Virus record (IMG/VR): IMGVR_UViG_3300046723_000197
Coordinates: 1-55,102 of that record
Strand: one strand, 5' to 3'
Length of the DNA: 55,102 nt
Source of the DNA: a virus
Shown piece by piece: positions 11,810-30,294 of this stretch. The notes under the pieces were generated by a model. That model worked only from the letters and a program-made list of their open reading frames with translations, was not told where the DNA came from and did no database searches. How positions within the stretch are numbered: the stretch's first letter is position 1; each line of letters starts with the position of its first letter. A program made the position numbers and the translations under genes.

Positions 11810-12555
11810 ACTTCACCTCACACAATATTCTGCTGCCGGATGGGACGCAGACCCTCCCGGGCCAGCTGCCGGTGGCAGAGTCCGGCATATGCCGGGTCGC
11901 ACTAAGCGCCCTGGGACTGGAGTTCGGCTACGGGTCACGTTCCGGTATCAGCGTGGCGGACTTGGGCTGCCTGGAAGGCGGGTTTACCGCCGAGTTCGCC
12001 CGCGCTGGGTATGACGCATATGGCATCGAGGCCCGGCAGGAAAACTACGACAATGCGGTATGGCTGAAGGATGCGCTCGGGCTTGAGAATCTGGGCTTTT
12101 TTCAGGGTGATGTCCGTACGCTACTGCCGGGCACGGAGTTCGACGCAGTGTTCTGCTCTGGCCTGCTCTATCACCTCGACGCCCCGGTGGCGTTCCTGAA
12201 CCTGCTGGGCAAAGTCACCCGGCGCATGCTGATCCTGCACACGCATTTCTCGATGGAAAACGGGCACCCGGAAAGCGTCCACAACCCCACTGGAACCTGG
12301 TGTGAGCCCTTCCAGTCACAGCATGAGGGCCGCACCGGGCACTGGTGCCACGAAGAAGACGACCGGTGGGCGAGCTTCGGCAACACCAAATCGTTCTGGC
12401 TGTGCAAAGACGACCTGCTGCTCAGCCTCCACGAGGCAGGGTTCACGCACGTGTCCGAAGTGCCTGACTGGCACAATACGCAACGTTTCATGACGGTCCA
12501 GGGGTCAGGTGGCGCCTTCCCCGACCACGGTATGTTTGTGGCGGTCAAGCCGTGA
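11806..12555 (+). CDS. class I SAM-dependent methyltransferase (TRM9/Ubi-like), copy 1
   Basis: 249 residues from GTG 11806, overlapping the upstream TGA, with GGGGG at 11796-11800. Motif I is VADLGCLEGGFTAEFARAGY, followed by YGIEARQENYD, VFCSGLLYHLDAPV and LILHTHFS. The C-terminal half (SFWLCKDDLLLSLHEAGF) is the substrate-side cap. The protein at 30313-31014 shares the same series of motifs and is a clear paralogue. It lies directly before an epimerase gene in the glycan operon. Confidence 0.78.
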   Translation: MNFTSHNILLPDGTQTLPGQLPVAESGICRVALSALGLEFGYGSRSGISVADLGCLEGGFTAEFARAGYDAYGIEARQENYDNAVWLKDALGLENLGFFQGDVRTLLPGTEFDAVFCSGLLYHLDAPVAFLNLLGKVTRRMLILHTHFSMENGHPESVHNPTGTWCEPFQSQHEGRTGHWCHEEDDRWASFGNTKSFWLCKDDLLLSLHEAGFTHVSEVPDWHNTQRFMTVQGSGGAFPDHGMFVAVKP

Positions 12556-13700
12556 AGGCGCTGGTGACAGGTCACTGCGGTTTCATTGGATGGCATTTCA
12601 AGACCCGGCTGGAAGCTGACGGCTGGGACGTGGACGGCTGCGACATCGCCGCCACCAACGCCCGCGACGCCCGTGACCTGTTCCGGCATGCTGTCCGCCG
12701 CTATGACCTCGCGGTGCATTGTGCCGCTGTCGTCGGTGGCCGCCACACGATTGAGAACGCGCCGCTCGACCAGGCGGTCAACCTCGAACTCGACGCGGGC
12801 CTGTTCCAGTGGGCGCTGCGCACCCGCCCCGGCCGGGTGATCTACTTCTCCTCCTCCGCCGTCTACCCGGTGGATCAGCAGAGCGGCATTTTCCGGTTCC
12901 CCCTCACCGAGGACATGATCGACCTGGATGTCCCACGCCAGCCCGATGAGCTGTATGGCTGGGTGAAGCTGACGGGTGAGCGGCTGGCCTGTCTCGCCCG
13001 GCGCGAAGGTGTGCCGGTGACGGTGGTGCGCCCATTCTCGGGCTACGGCGAGCACCAGGACATTGACTACCCGTTCGGCGCGTTCGCTGACCGTGCCCGT
13101 AATCGTGAAGACCCGTTCACCATCTGGGGGGACGGGTACCAGGCCCGCGACTTCGTTCACGTCGATGATGTGGTGGACGCCACCCTGGCCGTGGCGGAGT
13201 CGGGCACCGAGGAGCCGGTCAACATCGGCTGGGGCGAGCCGGTGACGATGATGGAGCTGGCGCAGCGGTTCACCAGCGCCGCTGGCTACACGCCAGGATT
13301 TAAACTGAAGACGACCGCGCCGGCTGGGGTGAGCTACCGGGTCGCTGACCCGGCCCGGATGCGCAAGTTCTACCAGCCGCGCGTCACCCTCGATGAGGGC
13401 ATACGCCGTGCCCTGAGAGGCGCCGAGTTACATGAGCCCGCTGGTGTCAGTTATCAGCCCGACCTGGCAACGGCACGAGTGGCTGTTCGACCGCTGCATC
13501 GCCTCGGTGAAGGCGCAGGAGTATTCACCCATCGAGCATGTGATCGTCTGCGACGGCCCCGACCCGGTGCTGGCGGAACTGATCGGCCAGATGGAGATGA
13601 CGGCAGGCTATTCGCTGATCTTCGAGCAGATGCCGCCGAACCCCGACCCACGGTGGGGGACACGCGCCCGGCTGCGCGGCCTGGAACTGGCCACCGCTGA
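12552..13700 (+). CDS. NAD-dependent epimerase/dehydratase (extended SDR), anomalous C-terminus
   Basis: Rossmann enzyme for nucleotide sugars. The N-terminus ALVTGHCGFIGWHF is the NAD(P) glycine motif, VHCAAVVGGRHT is the post-loop, FSSSAVYPV gives Ser, and ELYGWVKLTGE gives the catalytic YxxxK. VRPFSGYGEHQD and DFVHVDDVVDATL are the usual later signatures. The recognisable domain ends at about 13430 (EGIRRALRG). The last 88 or so codons are low-complexity and lie out of frame over the next glycosyltransferase gene. Neighbouring genes meet at ATGA junctions, and an ATGA exists at 13432 but in the wrong frame for this gene, so a one-base indel near 13400-13430 is likely. Confidence 0.8.
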   Translation: MKALVTGHCGFIGWHFKTRLEADGWDVDGCDIAATNARDARDLFRHAVRRYDLAVHCAAVVGGRHTIENAPLDQAVNLELDAGLFQWALRTRPGRVIYFSSSAVYPVDQQSGIFRFPLTEDMIDLDVPRQPDELYGWVKLTGERLACLARREGVPVTVVRPFSGYGEHQDIDYPFGAFADRARNREDPFTIWGDGYQARDFVHVDDVVDATLAVAESGTEEPVNIGWGEPVTMMELAQRFTSAAGYTPGFKLKTTAPAGVSYRVADPARMRKFYQPRVTLDEGIRRALRGAELHEPAGVSYQPDLATARVAVRPLHRLGEGAGVFTHRACDRLRRPRPGAGGTDRPDGDDGRLFADLRADAAEPRPTVGDTRPAARPGTGHR

Positions 13701-14052
13701 CCTGATCGCCTATCTCGATGACGATGACTCCTACCGGCCGGACCACTGTTCCCAGCTGGTGCGGGCACTGGAACGCCACCCCGAAGTGGGCTTCGCCTAC
13801 ACCCAGATGGCCAGCCACGGCGGCGTCATAGATGGAGCGGCCCTGGCTGTCATCGGCTCGGGTGACCTCGGCCCGTGCGCCATCGGCACACCCATGATCA
13901 TGCACCGGCGGGAGCTGCTGGAAATCTCCACCTGGGGACCGCCAGACGCGATGGAAGACTGGCGGCTGGTGGACCGGTGGGTGGAACGGGGCATCAAATC
14001 TGAGTTTGTGCCGTGGGTTACCATAGATGTATGGCCGAGTGCATATCGCTGA
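13432..14052 (+). CDS. GT2-type glycosyltransferase
   Basis: 206 residues. LVSVISPTWQRHEWLFDRC is the family-2 opening, LIAYLDDDDSYRPDH holds the DXD site, and AMEDWRLVDRWVERG near the C-terminus carries the ED base region. It is paralogous to 2181-2810. It is the last gene of the 9980-14052 operon; only 27 bases separate its stop from the first pentanucleotide array. Confidence 0.8.
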   Translation: MSPLVSVISPTWQRHEWLFDRCIASVKAQEYSPIEHVIVCDGPDPVLAELIGQMEMTAGYSLIFEQMPPNPDPRWGTRARLRGLELATADLIAYLDDDDSYRPDHCSQLVRALERHPEVGFAYTQMASHGGVIDGAALAVIGSGDLGPCAIGTPMIMHRRELLEISTWGPPDAMEDWRLVDRWVERGIKSEFVPWVTIDVWPSAYR

Positions 14053-14079
14053 CTCCACGTGGAGCTATGCTGAAAAGCC

Positions 14080-14200
14080 TGGGCGTGGCACGGCGGGGCG
14101 AGGCGTGGCTGGGACCGGCTCGGCGCGGCTAGGCAGGGCTACCTCAAGGCATGGCGCGGCGCGGCTTGGCAGGGCGAGGCTGGGCGAGGCTGGGCATGGG
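14080..14200 (+). repeat. GGCNN pentanucleotide array 1
   Basis: About 120 bases made almost wholly of GGCNN units (GGCGT GGCAC GGCGG GGCGA ...) with one punctuation element, GGCTACCTCA, at 14138-14147. It is in the same orientation as array 3 (29757-30252) and opposite to array 2. It ends exactly where the 13-bp hairpin at 14201 begins. Open frames across it are a by-product of the stop-poor unit and are not called as genes. Confidence 0.88.
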
Positions 14201-14275
14201 TGCCCCAGACGGAAAGGTTCGGTGACGGCCGGTGAGTCAGGCCCCTCACTTCACCTCCTCCGTCTGGGGCATTTT
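14201..14275 (+). terminator. hairpin terminator ending the glycan operon and array 1
   Basis: TGCCCCAGACGGA (14201-14213) pairs perfectly with 14259-14271 and is followed by TTTT. The 45-base loop holds a second inverted repeat (GGTGAG...CTCAC). This is a good intrinsic terminator, but it lies only ten bases before the ATG-ATG at 14282, so it could also act as an attenuator for the next gene. Confidence 0.75.
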
Positions 14276-14376
14276 AAGTCCATGATGCACAGGCTGAAGG
14301 CAACCCCCTGCCCACAGGCTGCGGGTTTTTCCGAGTCAAGCTGCCCCTCGATCAGCTGGCTGCCCACGGGTGGAAG

Positions 14377-15276
14377 GTGCGTTACCAGGCGTTCACCCCA
14401 CCCCCCGAGGTGGCGAACTACAAGCTGATCACCGCCGAGCGGCTGGACCGCCCGCAGGTGCTCGGGGCCTGGCGGCGGCTGCGGCAGGGCCACCGGCTCG
14501 CCTATGAGATAGACGACGACGTGTGGAACATTGACGTGACCAACTTCAGCGCCTACAGCACATATTCGCGGCTGGCGGTGCTCGACGCGGTTGAGAACTC
14601 GATCATCACCTCCGACCTGGTGACCGTGACCACCGAGCCGCTGGCCGAGGCAGTGCGGGCACATACCAGCCATACCAACGTGAAGGTGATCGGCAACTAC
14701 CTCCCCGCCTCTGTGCTCACCATGGAACGCAAGCGCCGTGAGCATGTGACGATCGGCTACGCCGGCGGCGCGAGCCACGCCATGGACATGGCGATGATCG
14801 CCACCACGGTGCGCAAAGTTCTCGACCGCGACCCCGGCCTGCGGCTGCATGTCGTGGGAGTGGACTACCGGCCCACCCTCGGCCACAACCACGCCTACCA
14901 CACCCCATGGGTGGACAACCCAGCCGACTACTGCCGCAGCATGGATCAGTACCTGGATTTCGACATCGGCCTCGCGCCGCTCGCATCCACCAGGTTCAAC
15001 GAATCCAAGAGCCACCTGAAAGCCCTCGAATACGCGGCGATGGGCATCCCTGTCGTCGCCTCAGACTTCGGCCCCTACCCAGGGTTTGTCATCGACGGGG
15101 TGACCGGGTTCCTGGTGCGCAGCAAGAGCGAATGGCGGGACCGTATCCGCGAGCTGGTGGCCGACGAGGATCTGCGTGAGAGCATGGGGGCCAAGGCCCG
15201 CGAGCTGGCTGCCCAGCATACGATTGAGGGCAACTGGCATAGGTGGGCCGCCGCGTACCAGGAGGTACTGACGTGA
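14377..15276 (+). CDS. GT4-type glycosyltransferase, N-terminus frameshifted
   Basis: 299 residues from GTG 14377, but the frame is open and family-like back to about 14310 (TGCGFFRVKLPLDQLAAHGW), where no start codon exists. A natural start, ATG 14282 or 14285, is in another frame; one extra C in the C5 run at 14304-14308 would join them and give a complete GT-B N-terminus. The GT4 C-terminal domain is clear: IGYAGGASHAMDM, LHVVGVDY, DIGLAPL, FNESKSHLKALEYAAMGIPV and GVTGFLV. This is either a one-base sequencing error, a mutated gene, or a gene using a frameshift. It is followed by an ATGA-coupled small gene. Confidence 0.8.
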   Translation: MRYQAFTPPPEVANYKLITAERLDRPQVLGAWRRLRQGHRLAYEIDDDVWNIDVTNFSAYSTYSRLAVLDAVENSIITSDLVTVTTEPLAEAVRAHTSHTNVKVIGNYLPASVLTMERKRREHVTIGYAGGASHAMDMAMIATTVRKVLDRDPGLRLHVVGVDYRPTLGHNHAYHTPWVDNPADYCRSMDQYLDFDIGLAPLASTRFNESKSHLKALEYAAMGIPVVASDFGPYPGFVIDGVTGFLVRSKSEWRDRIRELVADEDLRESMGAKARELAAQHTIEGNWHRWAAAYQEVLT

Positions 15277-15608
15277 TGATCGTCATCATGGACCAGCAGA
15301 TGAGCGGCACCCGCTATGACGGCCGGGACTGGCCAGGCCATGGGGCAGAGTTCGAGGTGCCCGACTGGGAAGGCGTGGAGCTGTGCGCCGGCGGCATTGC
15401 TCACCCGAAGGCGGTAGTAGCGGAGGAGCGCAAGGTGGAAGTCGCCATGCCACCGCCTGACCCTGCCGTGGAGGTGCGCGCAGAGCCCGCAGCCGCCCAG
15501 GTGACGGCCCCGCCCGCCGTGGCGGAGGAGAGTGACGAGAACCTTCCCGTGGAGATGCGCAAGCGCGGCCCCGGCCGCCCCCCGGGCAGCACTAACAGGC
15601 CGAAGTGA
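15276..15608 (+). CDS. small protein with C-terminal AT-hook-like motif
   Basis: 110 residues from ATG 15276, overlapping the upstream TGA, with GGAGG at 15261-15265. Residues 1-45 form a small folded part (FEVPDWEGVELCAGG, reminiscent of short phage head proteins). The middle is Ala/Pro/Glu-rich, and the end KRGPGRPPGSTNRPK contains the GRP-type core of an AT-hook and is strongly basic. It might bind DNA or be a linker in the head; no family is assigned. Confidence 0.6.
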   Translation: MIVIMDQQMSGTRYDGRDWPGHGAEFEVPDWEGVELCAGGIAHPKAVVAEERKVEVAMPPPDPAVEVRAEPAAAQVTAPPAVAEESDENLPVEMRKRGPGRPPGSTNRPK

Positions 15609-15616
15609 TGACGCGC

Positions 15617-15640
15617 TAAGCTGTCCCGTAACAGGCCGCA
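15617..15640 (+). promoter_or_regulatory. putative promoter with GGCCGCA box
   Basis: TAAGCT (15617-15622) fits TANNNT and is followed by GTCCCG and GGCCGCA at 15634-15640. This matches the pattern before other structural genes (3293, 19797, 31272, 32456, 40839). It would serve the small genes from 15663. Confidence 0.4.
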
Positions 15641-15662
15641 CCGTCGATTGAGAGCACGACTG

Positions 15663-16001
15663 GTGACTGCGGCCTGCATTGATGAGCTGGTGAAAGCCTG
15701 GGCGCTCGATGAGATCACCCAGCAGGCTTTCGGTACCGAGTACCGCATCGCGGTCACCTGGGTGCCGGTCCCTGCCCCAGGTGCCCCGAACGTCATTGTC
15801 CCTGCCTGGTATCTGGCGATCACCACCCGCAACCCCCTCATCGGCGAGCCGCGCCTGTGCCACACGATACCGATCGGCATACCCGAGCCCGACGAGAAGA
15901 CGGTGCGCCGGGCCATCGCCGAGGGCCTGCACCTGCTGCTTGACCTGACCGCCTCGAAGCTGGCGGGGGTGAACGGCCATGATCCCACTGCTGCACGCTG
16001 A
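15663..16001 (+). CDS. hypothetical protein
   Basis: 112 residues from GTG 15663 with GAGAG at 15650; a TTG at 15648 is possible. The compact fold alternates strands and helices (YRIAVTWVPVPAPG, AWYLAITTRNPLIG) and ends in a long helix (AEGLHLLLDLTASKLAG). No family recognised. It overlaps the next gene by 23 bases. Confidence 0.55.
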   Translation: MTAACIDELVKAWALDEITQQAFGTEYRIAVTWVPVPAPGAPNVIVPAWYLAITTRNPLIGEPRLCHTIPIGIPEPDEKTVRRAIAEGLHLLLDLTASKLAGVNGHDPTAAR

Positions 16002-16293
16002 GACCCGGTGGGAATGCCCGAACTGCCCGGCCACCCACCTGACCACCGAGCCGCAGCCGCATATCCCGTTCCATGAGTGCCCGGGGCTGCGTGGCATCCT
16101 CGCGCCCTACGTGGAGGAGGGTACTCGCTGCAACGTGCACGCCCTCGGCCGTGAGGATTACGTGGGTCCAGAGCAGGGCCTGCGGGCTGACGCTGATGGC
16201 CGTCCCGTCATGAGCGTGATAACCGAACGGTGGGACGGCAGCAACGACTGCGCCGTCTTCCCCGGTACCGCATCCGCACAACAGGAAGGCTGA
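15979..16293 (+). CDS. small zinc-ribbon-like protein
   Basis: 104 residues. WECPNCPATH and FHECPGLRG form a CxxC...HxxC pattern near the N-terminus that could bind zinc. The rest is polar with no membrane segment. Proteins of this type, which convert a tRNA-like or header Cys pair into a small ribbon, are common beside phage structural genes, but the function here is unknown. Confidence 0.55.
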   Translation: MIPLLHAETRWECPNCPATHLTTEPQPHIPFHECPGLRGILAPYVEEGTRCNVHALGREDYVGPEQGLRADADGRPVMSVITERWDGSNDCAVFPGTASAQQEG

Positions 16294-16296
16294 CCC

Positions 16297-16770
16297 ATGG
16301 CCTGGGCAACGTCCAACATTTCCGGCGCCGGGCTTGACCAGCTCCTGAACGGCACCTTCTATGCCACCAACGCTGGCACCTCCTATGCGGCCGACACGAT
16401 CGACGTCGCGCTGTATAACAACTCGGTCACGCCGGACAAGAACGCCACGCTGGTCAACAACACCTTCAACGGCGGCACCTGGACGGGCAACGAGCTGACC
16501 TCGGCTGGGCAGTGGGCCGCCGGCGGTGTCGCGCTCGGCTCAAAGACCCACACGTTCGGTGCTGGCACGGTGCAGATCAGCGCCGCCAACACCGCTTCGG
16601 GTAACGCCGCGACCCTGACGGGCGTGTTCGGCTGCGCGGTCTACGACGCCACGCTGACACTGAAGTACCTCTACTGCTGGAATTACTTCGGCGGCTCACA
16701 GAGCGTGACCGCTGGTACGTTCACGGTCGTCTGGTCGGGTTCCGGGATTCTCCAGTACACGCTCACCTAG
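16297..16770 (+). CDS. beta-rich phage structural protein
   Basis: 157 residues, almost all predicted beta strand, rich in Gly, Ala, Thr and Asn (AWATSNISGAGLDQLLNG; GAGTVQISAANTASGNAATL). Starting three bases after the previous stop, it has the composition of phage decoration or tail-fibre domains and no signal peptide. No family is named. Confidence 0.55.
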   Translation: MAWATSNISGAGLDQLLNGTFYATNAGTSYAADTIDVALYNNSVTPDKNATLVNNTFNGGTWTGNELTSAGQWAAGGVALGSKTHTFGAGTVQISAANTASGNAATLTGVFGCAVYDATLTLKYLYCWNYFGGSQSVTAGTFTVVWSGSGILQYTLT

Positions 16771-16785
16771 CTAGGAGGCGCTGCC

Positions 16786-17778
16786 ATGCGCCGTCTGGGT
16801 TATGCATTCGCCGTACTAGTGGTGACGGTAATGGTGGCCGTGGTGGGCGCCCGCGCCCTGGCCGCTGGCGGCCTGACCGACGTGACATTCAACGGGTGCC
16901 TGGCGGGCGGGAAGCTCACAGGCGTGCAGGCGACGCGGACCCCTTCGTGCGCAGCAACCGCGACGCCCGTGCAATGGGCAGGGAAGGCAGGCGTCACAGC
17001 CAGCCCGTCGCCAACCATCACATCGCCGAGCCCCAGTCCCAGTGTGAGCACAAGCACAAGTGCCCCCCCGCCGGGGACGTGCGTGACGAGCGACCCATCG
17101 GGGAACTGTGGCCCGTACAGCTACGCCGGCATCACCAACAGCAACGGCTTCAACACCTATGTGTCGAATAACTGCTGGGGCGACCCATCCTGCCAGCAGA
17201 CCGTGACTGCAACCGATCCAGGTAACTGGTCGGTCACTGCGCACGAGCCTGACGGGAACACGGCGGTCATGACCTACCCCGACGTTAAGCAGATGTTCAA
17301 TGACTGGTGCGGCACCGGCTGGAATGACTGCGCCAATATGACCGACACCCCTCTCTCGGCGATGTCGCTGCTGACCAGCAGCTTCACCGAGAACATGCAC
17401 CAGGCGAGCGGCACGATCGCCGAAGCCGGGTACGACCTGTGGCTGACTGGTACCTCCGGTTACGGGGAGGTCATGGTCTGGGTGGATAACTCCAACCGGG
17501 GAACCGGCGGCGCGACGATCCTGGGTACGGCTAACATTGGCGGCCAGTCATACACGGTCATGCACTTCGGTTCGGGTGAGCTGATCTATTCGCTCGACTC
17601 CAACGAGCAGTCGGGCACGGTGGACATCCGGGCCGTCCTCCAGAATGCGGTGAATAACGGGTACGAGTCGCCGGGGCTATCACTGGCCGAACTCGATTTC
17701 GGCTGGGAGATCTGCTCGACTGGCGGCCAGGCGCAGACGTTCACGATAGGCAGCTACTCCATCACGGCTGCGAACTGA
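16786..17778 (+). CDS. secreted GH12-type endoglucanase
   Basis: 330 residues. The Sec signal helix is at about 5-27 (ending ALAAG), followed by a Ser/Thr/Pro linker (PSPSPSVSTSTSAPPP), then a beta-jelly-roll catalytic domain from about residue 115. YGEVMVWVDNSNRG gives the nucleophile E228 in the GH12 ExMxW context, and ELDFGWEICSTGG gives the acid/base E308. GH12 enzymes cut beta-1,4-glucans or xyloglucan. A cellulase-type gene with its own export signal is unusual in a phage late region. It is a host-type accessory gene preceded by AGGAGG and coupled by TGATG to the next methyltransferase. Confidence 0.75.
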   Translation: MRRLGYAFAVLVVTVMVAVVGARALAAGGLTDVTFNGCLAGGKLTGVQATRTPSCAATATPVQWAGKAGVTASPSPTITSPSPSPSVSTSTSAPPPGTCVTSDPSGNCGPYSYAGITNSNGFNTYVSNNCWGDPSCQQTVTATDPGNWSVTAHEPDGNTAVMTYPDVKQMFNDWCGTGWNDCANMTDTPLSAMSLLTSSFTENMHQASGTIAEAGYDLWLTGTSGYGEVMVWVDNSNRGTGGATILGTANIGGQSYTVMHFGSGELIYSLDSNEQSGTVDIRAVLQNAVNNGYESPGLSLAELDFGWEICSTGGQAQTFTIGSYSITAAN

Positions 17779-18497
17779 TGGACCTGGAACAGCTGAAGCT
17801 GTCCCTCACTGGGATCACCGGCGAAGACCCGTGCATCCCAGTGCCCAGCAACGGCCACCGCAGCGAGTTCAGCCGGCCTGACCGTGCCCGGGGCGCGGAC
17901 TGGCCGGCGCATGCCCCGACGATGATCGGGCTGGAGCGGCTGGGCAACATCCAGGAATGTGTGGAGAAGATCCTCGCCGACGACGTGCCCGGTGACCTGA
18001 TCGAGACCGGGGTGTGGCGCGGCGGGGCCTGTATCTTCATGCGGGCCATCCTCAAGGCACACGGTGACACCAGCCGCACCGTGTGGGTAGCCGACTCATT
18101 CGCTGGGATGCCCAGCGCCGAGCACGGCGGCGAAGAGGGCTGGTTCGGCATGCCCCAGCTGGCCGTCCCGCTCGATGAGGTGAAGGCGAACTTCGCGGGC
18201 TACGGGCTGCTTGATGAGCAGGTCCAGTTCCTGCCCGGCTGGTTCGATGAGACGCTGGCCGCTGCACCCATCGAGCGGCTGGCGCTGCTGCGGCTCGATG
18301 GCGACCTGTACTCCTCGACCATGACCGCACTGGAAGCCCTGTACCCGAAGGTGTCACCCGGCGGGTTCGTCATCATTGACGACTGGTGGTTCAAGTCCTG
18401 CCGTGAGGCAGTCACCGAATACCGGGCGAAGCATGGCATCACCACGCCTATCTGGCAGGCTGACTACGGGTACTGGCGGGTGCCTTCCGCACAATGA
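17778..18497 (+). CDS. TylF/MycF-type sugar O-methyltransferase
   Basis: 239 residues. ERLGNIQECVEKILADDVPG and DLIETGVWRGGACIFMRAIL are hallmark segments of the TylF (macrocin O-methyltransferase) family, followed by VWVADSFAGMPS, LLRLDGDLYSSTMTAL and GGFVIIDDWW, which carry the metal-binding acids. These enzymes methylate hydroxyls on sugars, which supports an O-methylated glycan. ATG 17778 overlaps the GH12 stop. The last 50 bases overlap the convergent gene. Confidence 0.85.
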   Translation: MDLEQLKLSLTGITGEDPCIPVPSNGHRSEFSRPDRARGADWPAHAPTMIGLERLGNIQECVEKILADDVPGDLIETGVWRGGACIFMRAILKAHGDTSRTVWVADSFAGMPSAEHGGEEGWFGMPQLAVPLDEVKANFAGYGLLDEQVQFLPGWFDETLAAAPIERLALLRLDGDLYSSTMTALEALYPKVSPGGFVIIDDWWFKSCREAVTEYRAKHGITTPIWQADYGYWRVPSAQ

Positions 18498-26802: not shown

Positions 26803-27869
26803 AGATCCCCAGGCGGGTGCTTATAGTGCATCCCGGCCCGAACTTCTCCGTTTCCGACGTGTTCACCGGCTGGCAGGAAGCCTTCATCGAGGCAGGCATC
26901 GCCTGCCGGGACTACAACCTCGATGACCGGGTCGCCTTCCACGACTCGGCCTACCTGTTCACCGGCAACCACGACAAGGACGGCAACCCCCAGTTCAAGA
27001 AAGCCTTCCACGACAAGGCGGCAGTCATCGGGGTGTCCGCGAACGGGATCTACGCCACCTGTTTCCAGTGGTGGCCCGACGTGGTACTCATCGTCAGCGC
27101 GTTCTTCATCCCGACCGACTTCATGGATGTGATGCGCTCACGCGGCATCAAGGTCGTGCTCCTGTTCACCGAATCGCCGTATGAGGAGACCCGGCAGCTG
27201 GAACGTGCCCGCCACGCTGACCTGGTGCTGCTCAACGACCCGCTGCGGATCTCGATGTATGACGAGGCGGGCATCCCCGCCCTCTACATGCCGCACGCCT
27301 ACCGCCCCGGCCTGCACTACCCAGGGCCGGGCGAAGACCAGTTCATGACCGACTTCGCCTTCATCGGCACCATGTTCCCCTCCCGGCAGGAGTTCTTCTC
27401 CAAGATGGTGGCACTCGGCGCGTTCGACGGGCTTGATTGCACATTTGGTGGAAATTGGAACACGGTGAAAGAGTCCGACCCGCTGATGAAGCTGCTGTCG
27501 CATGAGCGGAACGAATGCGTGGACAACGCGCTCACCACCCGGATCTACAAGTCCGCCAAGGTCGGGCTCAACATGTACCGGCGCGAAGACGACGATGACA
27601 CCCATGAAGGCTGGTCGGCCAGTCCCCGTGAGATCGAGATGGCGGCGTGCGGACTGTTCTTCCTGCGCGAGTCCCGGCCCGAATCGGATGAATTGTTCCC
27701 AATGTTGCCTACCTTCGCCAGCCCGGAGGACGCGGCCGAGCAGTTGCGGTGGTGGCTCGACCACGACATCGAGCGGGGGATCGCCGCCATCCAGGCGCGG
27801 GCACGGATCAGGGACCGCACCTTCGCCGCCAACCTCAAGAAGCTGCTCCAGGCGCTGGATGAGCTGTAA
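26799..27869 (+). CDS. GT-B glycosyltransferase (CgeB-like, GT4)
   Basis: 356 residues from GTG 26799, which overlaps the upstream TGA. RVLIVHPGPNFSVSDVFTGW opens the first Rossmann domain and VVLLFTESPYEE and LVLLNDP follow. DFAFIGTMFPSRQEFFSKM is the CgeB/glycosyltransferase-family-1 motif at the start of the donor domain, and SPREIEMAACGLFFLRESRPE is the donor-binding region. Downstream of the stop is array 2. Like the other transferases here it is cytosolic and without an obvious acceptor. Confidence 0.78.
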   Translation: MKIPRRVLIVHPGPNFSVSDVFTGWQEAFIEAGIACRDYNLDDRVAFHDSAYLFTGNHDKDGNPQFKKAFHDKAAVIGVSANGIYATCFQWWPDVVLIVSAFFIPTDFMDVMRSRGIKVVLLFTESPYEETRQLERARHADLVLLNDPLRISMYDEAGIPALYMPHAYRPGLHYPGPGEDQFMTDFAFIGTMFPSRQEFFSKMVALGAFDGLDCTFGGNWNTVKESDPLMKLLSHERNECVDNALTTRIYKSAKVGLNMYRREDDDDTHEGWSASPREIEMAACGLFFLRESRPESDELFPMLPTFASPEDAAEQLRWWLDHDIERGIAAIQARARIRDRTFAANLKKLLQALDEL

Positions 27870-28490
27870 GCCGAGCCGAGCCCTGCCTTGCCCCGCCATG
27901 CCCTGACCCGCCGTGCCTTGCCCTGAGGTAGCCATGCCCAGCCGCGCCATGCCATGCCTTGCCGCACCCGGCCCTGCCATGCCGCGCCTTGAGGTAGCCC
28001 AGCCCGGCCCTGCCTGGCCAGGCCCAGCCGTGCCCAGCCATGCCTTGCCGCGCCCCGCCCTGAGGTAGCCCAGCCATGCCCCGCCCTGCCCCGCCATGCC
28101 GGGCCATGCCACGCCCAGCCATGCCTCGCCTCGCCTGGCCTTGCCGTGAGGTAGCCCAGCCACGCCCTGCCAAGCCGAGCCAAGCCCGGCCTTGCCACGC
28201 CGAGCCCTGCCCGGCCAAGCCCTGTCATGCCCTGAGGTAGCCCTGCCCAGCCCTGCCTTGCCCATCCTCGCCCTGCCATGCCGAGCCTTGAGGTAGCCCT
28301 GCCACGCCGAGCCTTGCCATGCCGCGCCCGGCCACGCCCTGCCTCGCCTCGCCCCGAGGTAGCCATGCCTAGCCGCGCCGGGCCATGCCAGGCCTGGCCC
28401 CGCCCGGCCCAGCCTTGCCGGGCCTCGCCCTGCCTTGAGGTAGCCCTGCCGCGCCGCGCCTTGCCCGGCCTCGCCTGGCCTGGCCCAGCC
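27870..28490 (-). repeat. GGCNN pentanucleotide array 2 (minus orientation)
   Basis: About 620 bases of NNGCC units on the plus strand (GGCNN on the minus). Eight punctuation elements TGAGGTAGCC (one with a C first) begin at 27924, 27990, 28061, 28147, 28233, 28289, 28355 and 28436. The intervals are 66, 71, 86, 86, 56, 66 and 81, every one 5n+1. The array fills the whole space between the stops of the convergent genes. Long overlapping frames across it have Gly-Ala-Arg-Trp repeats dictated by the unit and are not called as genes. Confidence 0.92.
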
Positions 28491-28494
28491 ATGA

Positions 28495-29070
28495 CTAGTC
28501 GTTTTCGAGCTTACGGAGCCGTTCCTTCAGGTCGGCTATCTCCTGCTCTGTGTGCTTCACTCGCGCACGGTCGTCTAGCCGCGCGTGCTTCAGCATGTTG
28601 ATCTGCTCGTCATGTTCGGCGAGCCGTTCAGCCTGCATCGACAGGATGGCCACAATATTGCTCATCCCACGGCGGACCTCTTGCACAAGCTGGCGCTCGG
28701 CGTTCGCCATGGATGAGGTGTCGATGGCCTCCACGACCGCGAGGCCCCGCCTCTCGGCCCGGCGTGCCCGCTTGCCGTAGCGGCGGCCCTTGTCGAGCAT
28801 CGCCTGGCCCTCGATGAGCTGGTAGCCGGCACCTCGTACCGCCCGCAGGCTGTACGAGTGCTCGCGCTCCAGCAGCCTGGCTCCAGCACCAACCGCCTGG
28901 TAGTAGGCGCTGTCCTGCCGGTCGATCTCAACCTCGGCGGATAGTTCGCTGTGCGGGATGACATCCTCGACCTTCAGGGTGCCTTCCTCGATCCGGCGCA
29001 CCAGGTATTCCATGATCACCTGACCGGCTGAGCGGCCATCGGCCCGCTTCGGGGCGAACTGGGCGTTCAA
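28495..29070 (-). CDS. coiled-coil protein with possible winged-helix N-terminus
   Basis: 191 residues. The middle part, LLEREHSYSLRAVRGAGYQLI, resembles the wing of OmpR-type DNA-binding domains but is not a firm match. Residues 85-110 are basic (KGRRYGKRARRAERRG), and 120-190 form a long helix, the end of which (HTEQEIADLKERLRKLEND) is a coiled coil. The start overlaps the upstream gene's stop. A DNA-associated role is possible. With its partner it forms the cassette enclosed by arrays 2 and 3. Confidence 0.6.
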   Translation of the reverse strand: MNAQFAPKRADGRSAGQVIMEYLVRRIEEGTLKVEDVIPHSELSAEVEIDRQDSAYYQAVGAGARLLEREHSYSLRAVRGAGYQLIEGQAMLDKGRRYGKRARRAERRGLAVVEAIDTSSMANAERQLVQEVRRGMSNIVAILSMQAERLAEHDEQINMLKHARLDDRARVKHTEQEIADLKERLRKLEND

Positions 29071-29666
29071 ATCTTCATCACCTCGGCCTCGAACCGGCCC
29101 CAGCCGTTGACCCGGTTGTCACCCAGGCCCTCAACCACACCGGAGGTGTGGACGATCTCCTCGAACTCATCGAAGTCGAGGAGGTTGGCCAGCAGCAGCC
29201 AGTCCACGGTCAGGCCCCAGGTGGGGAATGCTGGCCGGCATCGGGGGGTGCGCCCGCGCACCGCGACGATCGTCACGTCCTTGTACTTGCCGAGGGCGTA
29301 TAGCTCATCGGGGGTCTTGCCGTCGTCGGGGAACACCAGGGAGGCGTTCGGCTCAGCCGGGTCGGCGATGTTGAGCGCCCGGACGATGTCCTTGCCTTTG
29401 CGCGTGGCCTTCGCGGCTTCCTGGAAGCAGCGGCGGACGTTCATCTTCGGCACCACGATCCGGTCTTCGTGCATGTAGAGGCCGCCCAGGAATTCCAGGC
29501 GCTGGATTTCCCGCCGGTCGTCCTCTGTCTTGGTGCGCTTTTTCGTGATCTTGGCGATCTCCCGTGCCCAGTAGTTGTCTGGGTCGGCGAGCTGGACGTT
29601 GTGCTGTGCATACTGGGTCTGCCCGATCAGGCGCGTTCGCACCTTGACGGCGGTAGTTCCTGCCAT
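29067..29666 (-). CDS. conserved phage protein, possibly RAMP/ferredoxin-like
   Basis: 199 residues starting at ATG 29666 with GGAGGG upstream. The pattern YAREIAKITKKRTKTEDDRREIQ written over its helix, EFLGGLY, VRRCFQEAAKATRKG and a closing GLGDNRVNGWGRFEAEV is shared by a family found in actinophages and prophages. The terminal GLGDxRxxGxGRF is like a glycine-rich loop of RAMP folds; that similarity is by eye. Function unknown. It has its own well-formed minus-strand promoter. Confidence 0.65.
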   Translation of the reverse strand: MAGTTAVKVRTRLIGQTQYAQHNVQLADPDNYWAREIAKITKKRTKTEDDRREIQRLEFLGGLYMHEDRIVVPKMNVRRCFQEAAKATRKGKDIVRALNIADPAEPNASLVFPDDGKTPDELYALGKYKDVTIVAVRGRTPRCRPAFPTWGLTVDWLLLANLLDFDEFEEIVHTSGVVEGLGDNRVNGWGRFEAEVMKI

Positions 29667-29720
29667 GCGGCCCTCCTAGTTCCATATCCTCGGCGGGAAT
29701 CCCCAGCGAGGGTGAGCGCA

Positions 29721-29750
29721 AGACTATGTTTAAATCTGTGCTACAGTCAA
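29721..29750 (-). promoter_or_regulatory. sigma-70-type promoter for the two-gene cassette
   Basis: On the minus strand TTGACT (29750-29745) is followed by an 18-base spacer and TAGTCT (29726-29721). The leader of about 50 bases carries GGAGGG before ATG 29666. This is one of the two clearest promoters in the window, next to the low-GC edge of array 3. Confidence 0.75.
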
Positions 29751-29756
29751 ATCGCA

Positions 29757-30252
29757 TGGCTCGGCTGGGCGAGGCCAGGCGGGGCTTGGCGCGGCTAGGC
29801 TGGGCGGGGCCAGGCATGGCTACCTCAAGGCACGGCGTGGCTTGGCCCGGCGCGGCGAGGCCCGGCGCGGCTCGGCCCGGCGCGGCCCGGCAAGGCATGG
29901 CTACCTCAGGGCACGGCGGGGCATGGCCCGGCGTGGCTCGGCATGGCAGGGCCTGGCTCGGCATGGCAGGGCCTGGCTCGGCATGGCAGGGCCTGGCTCG
30001 GCATGGCCTGGCATGGCTACCTCAGGGCGGGGCATGGCTGGGCGCGGCGCGGCGGGGCAAGGTCTGGCCAGGCCGGGCACGGCAGGGCTACCTCAGGGCT
30101 AAGCGGGGCCAGGCGGGGCGCGGCTAGGCGGGGCGGGGCTCGGCCGGGCGCGGCCAGGCTTGGCGCGGCGCGGCACGGCAGGGCTACCTCAGGGCACGGC
30201 TCGGCTCGGCAAGGCCAGGCTGGGCCGGGCGGGGCATGGCTGGGCTACCTCA
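29757..30252 (+). repeat. GGCNN pentanucleotide array 3
   Basis: About 495 bases of GGCNN units with six GGCTACCTCA elements at 29818, 29899, 30015, 30086, 30182 and 30243. The intervals are 81, 116, 71, 96 and 61, all 5n+1. It is opposite in orientation to array 2. The final element abuts the 15-bp hairpin at 30253. It begins within a few bases of the divergent cassette promoter. Confidence 0.92.
29941..30000 (+). repeat. three exact 20-bp tandem copies inside array 3
   Basis: GCATGGCAGGGCCTGGCTCG is repeated three times without change. Twenty bases are four pentamers, so this is a recent duplication that kept the array's phase. Confidence 0.95.
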
Positions 30253-30294
30253 CCTGGCTGGGTTCCCGGTGTTTAGACTGGGAACCCAGCCAGG
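30253..30294 (+). terminator. 15-bp perfect hairpin at the end of array 3
   Basis: CCTGGCTGGGTTCCC (30253-30267) pairs with 30280-30294 around a 12-base loop, GGTGTTTAGACT. The loop holds a -10-like TAGACT, so the palindrome could be an operator over a promoter for the gene at 30313 as well as an RNA hairpin. No T-run follows. Confidence 0.65.

Follow-up and report, generated by a model that had tools for sequence, protein, structure and literature searches.

The locus described here raises the question of what is specified by long stretches of phage DNA composed almost exclusively of the pentanucleotide GGCNN, in which GGC is held while the last two bases vary. The window, that is, the whole 55,102-nucleotide stretch that was analysed (IMG/VR record IMGVR_UViG_3300046723_000197, positions 1 to 55,102), comes from a virus record that carries capsid and tail genes. 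Direct reading revealed three arrays, at the places where an initial annotation had put them. Array A1 (27868–28490, with GGCNN on the minus strand) comprises nine guide segments of approximately 9–15 units, between which lie eight copies of GGCTACCTC(A/G)N. A2 (29758–30252, plus strand) has six segments of 10–21 units and six copies of GGCTACCTCAN, while A3 (14082–14197, plus strand) is an orphan with two segments flanking one GGCTACCTCAA. This gives 17 guide segments in the window, most of them 9–17 units in length and one of 21. On the basis of protein family, fold, gene order, array form, and the recurrence of array plus vipr across phages, we are highly confident that they encode the guide RNAs (vrRNAs) of a VIPR system carried by the phage.

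Across the three arrays 215 pentamers lie in strict register, and 207 of them begin with GGC; the others are two GGA, two GGT, and one each of GAC, GTC, AGC and CTG. GGC or GGT thus accounts for 209/215 units, and all 16 NN dinucleotides are represented. Uninterrupted GGCNN runs extend to as many as 22 units, compared with three in the real window outside the arrays and a mean of 3.1 (maximum 4) for the longest run when the window was Markov-shuffled 100 times. With an NN entropy of 3.8 bits in A1 and A2 the arrays are not simple tandem repeats (microsatellites), which consist of near-identical units; among the matches listed, nearly all GGC-containing repeats of bacterial genomes had values of 2.3 bits or less. 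Position-3 C is conserved about as well as GG, which is more than a two-quartet quadruplex would need. We found no sign that the arrays owe their form to G-quadruplexes or to half-turn bending, and these earlier suggestions appear to be wrong or unsupported. Within the 21-unit segment 2 of A2 (29940–30004) the four-unit block AT AG CT TC is present three times, perhaps through recent slippage or as a guide under construction.

It had been stated that no described element has this form, and plain literature searches for GGCNN or for pentanucleotide repeats in phages yielded no record; nor did the window have a family match in Rfam. Such an element has been described. According to the main text of a bioRxiv report of 2026 (PMC13142463), VIPR is a CRISPR-like system which is carried by phages, apparently against rival phages, and in which Vipr, a small RAMP protein of ancestral kind, is joined by an accessory gene (vap) and GGY/NN guide RNAs. 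The system is reported there to read dsDNA with a one-base skip, GGC being held by protein while NN pairs with the target DNA, and in SUSP1 transcription of phages or satellites that compete with it is repressed by this binding, with the aid of Vap (PMC13142463). The vrRNA consensus given in the same text is one of GGY/NN repeats in tracts of 9–16 with an invariable 3' part (PMC13142463), and the agreement of our arrays with this form supports the identification.

The gene between A1 and A2, vipr (29067–29666, minus strand), specifies a 199-amino acid protein predicted to have a RAMP fold and to bind guide RNA. It belongs to phrog_4652, for which PHROGs gives the function as unknown, and a Pfam search found no domain in it. 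The family profile matches the SUSP1 Vipr protein (PDB 36pp_D) with an E value of 3.3e-45, and the window protein alone matches it over the full length (1.9e-8). An AlphaFold2 model (pLDDT 96.5, pTM 0.90) has as its best structural neighbours the Csm3/Cas7 RAMP subunits (Foldseek E 1.6e-6; VIA Z 11.2). The C-terminus is glycine-rich, with the invariant or near-invariant pattern G180-x-G182..R185..G190, and the protein thus has the features of a Vipr, namely a small (~20 kDa) RAMP with an RRM core and a glycine-rich loop. It is 25–26% identical to the Vipr of Felixounavirus, the closest Viprs from isolated phages being those of Mycobacterium phage LittleE and Gordonia phages Trine and MakoManhole (33–36% identity).

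The vap-like gene (28495–29070, minus strand) encodes a protein of 191 amino acids with a predicted N-terminal GntR-like winged helix and a long C-terminal coiled coil. Its AlphaFold2 model (pLDDT 95.1) has GntR-type DNA-binding domains as top structural matches (Z up to 8.9); Pfam gave weak matches only. The HMM family to which it belongs, Z, also takes in the gene after vipr in Felixounavirus (2.6e-22), LittleE gp33, MakoManhole gp77 and Trine gp40. The locus therefore has the minimal VIPR composition of vipr and one vap gene, with arrays in the flanking intergenic DNA, and is phage-borne. A tree of Vipr sequences separates all Z-associated members, those of Felixounavirus and the window among them, from all those with an unrelated accessory family, Y; the support for this split, 84/95, is below the usual threshold. 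These relationships, drawn from Z- and Y-associated Viprs, point to a putative type II assignment (SUSP1 clade), types VI and VII also having a DNA-binding vap.

A1 would occupy the 3' UTR of the vipr-vap mRNA, starting 4 nt past the vap stop codon, and its far end reaches the stop of a convergent plus-strand gene. A2 is divergent from vipr. A3 follows a glycosyltransferase-like gene, on its downstream side, and is separated from the vipr locus by 13.7 kb. The surroundings of A3 (12552–18497) are a phage cluster of nucleotide-sugar epimerase, glycosyltransferase and methyltransferase-like genes. A sigma-70-like sequence (TTGACT-16-CATAGT, 29723–29750, minus strand) is placed to drive vipr-vap-A1; as the one match in 3.2 kb, where 0.2 were expected, it is a candidate promoter by consensus alone. 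An 18-bp hairpin (30253–30294, plus strand) stands directly 3' of the last GGCTACCTCA of A2, with a fold z of -5.5 relative to shuffles, and could be either an RNA 3' end or a terminator. After A3 there is a long hairpin followed by TTTT (14200–14275, plus strand; z -5.2), which is probably an intrinsic terminator.

By analogy with the published system, transcripts of the arrays would be bound by Vipr (29067–29666), which is thought to oligomerise on the RNA, each pentamer taking one subunit. GGC would be held by the protein, and the free NN dinucleotides would jointly specify a dsDNA target with one skipped base between pairs. Binding to the target would then repress transcription of competitors, helped by the DNA-binding-type Vap (28495–29070). 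Lying as it does 4 nt beyond the vap stop, A1 would presumably be made from the vipr-vap transcript, and the 11-nt word most likely ends one guide RNA and marks it off from the next. That the arrays of this phage are expressed as RNA, that RNPs form, and that targeting follows a one-base skip and leads to repression, we infer from the published system.

The initial annotation had described a fixed 10-mer that breaks the arrays 15 times at intervals of 5n+1. We found 14 exact copies of GGCTACCTCA and one GGCTACCTCG (28355) over the three arrays, and the 12 intervals between successive copies in A1 and A2 could all be reproduced as 5n+1 provided that the GGCTACCTCG variant was counted. This spacing arises because an 11-nt unit, GGCTACCTCAN, stands in for two pentamers; the rule simply reflects how long this constant terminal or spacer element is, and no separate law is involved. 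The 10-mer does recur 15 times, but it is not the whole of the constant element. The pentamer preceding it is GGCAG, GGCAT or GGCTG in all 15 cases, WK units making up 35% of all units, and the following base is G or A in 13 of the 15; the constant element is thus longer, GGCWKGGCTACCTCAR, and follows 15 segments. It separates successive guides and, for each vrRNA, is most likely either a short 3' tail or a processing element.

The same punctuation word occurs in an array of an unrelated 113.7-kb contig (L011), while other phages have the separators GGCGTTCAR, GGCACCGCA, GGCA or GGCNAGGAACGN, so that the word varies by phage. The phase shift which it introduces is +1 for GGCTACCTCAR in the window and -1 for GGCA, GGCGTTCAR and GGCACCGCA elsewhere. 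One might speculate, and we do so tentatively, that the end of a guide is set by this break in register, the constant word stopping the Vipr filament, marking the vrRNA end and replacing the structured tail of SUSP1; being phage-specific, it may be the only word which each Vipr accepts, keeping rival arrays apart. Anti-Shine-Dalgarno mimicry by CTACCTCA was considered and dropped. We did not find the GGCWKGGCTACCTCAR punctuation, phage-specific words, an orphan array such as A3, or tRNA-like separators (see below) in the main text of PMC13142463. Short phage-specific guide separators are a feature deserving functional interest.

L012, a divergent contig that comes from a different sample set and whose Vipr is about 90–91% identical to that of the window, carries arrays in the corresponding positions with NN content that differs from the window's. 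Since its arrays are so placed, and since L011 shares the punctuation word, misassembly can be ruled out. When homologous arrays of the two are aligned, roughly half of the NN positions are different with the register kept, a count that was conditioned on units keeping GG[CT] and is by itself no measure of GGC conservation. The earlier view that the frame is held while NN is free is borne out to this extent, but in the known system NN is guide information rather than filler. A2 and its L012 counterpart are near-identical at the start and different in the interior, guide A1.4 is kept and duplicated in L012, and L012 has an extra array after a methyltransferase-like gene. This pattern is what fast retargeting would look like. 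Hairpins of the A2 type, with altered sequence and the stem kept, follow both plus-strand arrays of L012 (z -5.9 and -5.3). Right at the start of the extra array (L012 4470–4486) stands TTGAGGTAGCAT, the complement of the punctuation word.

Searches for targets gave the following results. Concatenated NN bases compared with the window itself at gaps of 0–6 produced chance matches, except that the arrays matched themselves at gap 3. Against 4 Mb, on both strands, no guide had a match above 19/20, and a skip of 1 showed no clear excess over skips of 0–4. Exact one-skip scans of IMG/VR yielded no match for guide A1.5, 21 for A1.4 and four for A1.1, the flanks of these being at chance. For phages of Mycobacterium cluster F1, guide 1 had no exact match in IMG/VR and one two-mismatch match among 390 genomes that belong to the same family as a Nocardia sp. 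genome. F1 guide 3 had three matches in IMG/VR, the best of which, in a Pseudomonas-type phage portal gene where the skipped base falls on codon position 1, was judged to be due to chance; guide 4 had two, one of them full, but this guide is so short that chance is possible. No convincing natural target under the one-base-skip (xNN) rule was therefore found for the scanned window and F1 guides, which tells against the guide-RNA reading, as does the tail, short and linear here but reported as a structured pseudoknot in the SUSP1 clade (PMC13142463). This lack of targets, the detachment of A3 from vipr and the threefold internal duplication in segment 2 of A2 would suit arrays that derive from vrRNAs and now act as decoys or sponges, titrating for example the Vipr of a rival phage, with no active guides. 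We consider that improbable, because the phage's own vipr and vap are intact beside intact long arrays, most segments are guide-like in length, and NN diversity is high.

The reading of the arrays as guide-RNA stores is also supported by their distribution. The initial annotation had proposed that phage genomes be scanned for the pattern, and when virus contigs were searched with (GGCNN)8 at least 119 stretches came to light; degenerate arrays were present in 107 of these among the matches listed, many with array-specific separators. Reading of the upstream proteins, followed by iterated HMM searches, defined three recurrent families, X, Y and Z, and in this way array and vipr were linked independently of the VIPR preprint. 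Family X (Vipr) was found in 85/112 array-bearing virus loci among the matches listed. Y and Z are mutually exclusive, never occurring together, and one or other is present in about half of array loci. Of 100 arrays, 72 shared the strand on which the upstream gene is transcribed, as against 28 that did not, and they often lay a few bases past its stop codon. As a control we took 120 bacterial and archaeal loci with (GGCNN)10 matches. Among the matches listed, 10 of these 120 had degenerate arrays, the remainder being mostly plain microsatellites, and X, Y or Z accompanied six of the ten and none of the remainder. BLAST with arrays alone mostly fails to retrieve relatives. VIPR systems can nevertheless be found by the array itself, as most of the (GGCNN)8 matches listed in virus contigs carry a Vipr gene.

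Because the protein next to vipr has a GntR-like DNA-binding domain and the arrays adjoin its gene, one could also regard them as iteron- or centromere-like DNA sites for that winged-helix protein, used in replication or partition, with Vipr incidental. This is very unlikely. Arrays occur as well with vipr and the unrelated Y, or with neither accessory, which makes vipr and not the winged helix the constant partner; that partner is homologous to a proven vrRNA-binding protein; and the preference for the transcribed strand is unexpected for DNA sites. A neutral degenerate microsatellite or coding repeat can be dismissed almost outright: slippage can create degenerate tandem repeats and a few segments are recently duplicated, but GGC is held in 207/215 units while NN is diverse, one gene family is recurrently linked in unrelated phages, the bacterial GGC-containing microsatellites among the matches listed have no association with the vipr family, and no reading frame would survive the shifts in register of +1 or -1. 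Primase sites, R-loop origins, restriction-site or methylation arrays and coding repeats were likewise considered and dropped.

If the arrays are guide-RNA stores, as we believe, a puzzling pattern has been identified with part of a system reported only in 2026. The system of Escherichia phage SUSP1 (type II; PMC13142463, PDB 36pp), so far as the text describes it, resembles that of the window in full-length Vipr homology and in having GGY/NN arrays on both sides of a vipr-vap pair; the accessory, furthermore, falls in the HMM family of the Felixounavirus post-vipr gene. Felixounavirus uses both GGT and GGC, whereas the window has GGC almost only. SUSP1 has, in the same text, separate vrRNAs, each with a structured (pseudoknot) tail, whereas the window has long tandem arrays with a short linear 16-nt constant element, and one array remote from the genes (PMC13142463). 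Among isolated phages, GGCNN arrays adjoin a phrog_4652 (Vipr) gene in Mycobacterium cluster F1 (Quico, Donkeykong, Mattes, Saal and others) and in Gordonia phage Pipp, where, unlike in the window, the accessory is of the Y type and not a winged helix, and GGCA (-1) serves as punctuation in place of GGCTACCTCAN (+1). LittleE (gp34/gp33), Trine and MakoManhole share the accessory family of the window but have shorter arrays, and in LittleE and MakoManhole the segments are split by tRNA-like elements instead of GGCTACCTCA. The Mycobacterium smegmatis phages of cluster F1 and LittleE, together with the Gordonia phages, offer tractable isolates for the study of actinophage VIPR.

Class 1 CRISPR-Cas systems, with their Csm3/Cmr4/Cas7 backbone, are similar in RAMP fold and in having protein-held nucleotides at intervals along the guide RNA. 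Their period is 6 with five displayed bases, as opposed to 5 with two in VIPR. The window does not contain such a system: direct repeats with contiguous spacers are absent, and just vipr and vap, with no other cas genes, lie between the arrays.

Some minor features of the wider collection may be recorded. In the arrays of loci L011–L135 the first N of GGCNN is a purine in approximately 68% of units and C in 12%, which could reflect either avoidance of the self-pairing GGCC or a codon-position-1 signature of the targets. Several Z-type loci have tRNA-like minihelices after or between GGCNN arrays, composed of an acceptor-like stem and a GGTTCGANTC T-arm, without an anticodon arm: LittleE (L260 3150–3540), MakoManhole (L262 2870–3100 and 1640–1700) and, as tails, L020, L035, L108 and L122. 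T-loop words were found within 90 nt of 5/143 array ends versus a background of 0.26%; a single-sequence fold of one example was no better than shuffles. One possible role for these elements would be to attract RNase P or RNase Z, which would then cut guide RNAs. Lastly, annotated genes of several deposited phages overlap arrays or start inside them, namely Donkeykong gp48 (L014 2477–2863), DRBy19 gp51 (L259 2509–2673), ByChance gp39 (L256 2488–2646), Philus gp52 (L257, from 2556) and Trine gp40 (L261, from 2591). Since GGCNN arrays have few stop codons in any frame, these genes are probably false or have been given the wrong start.
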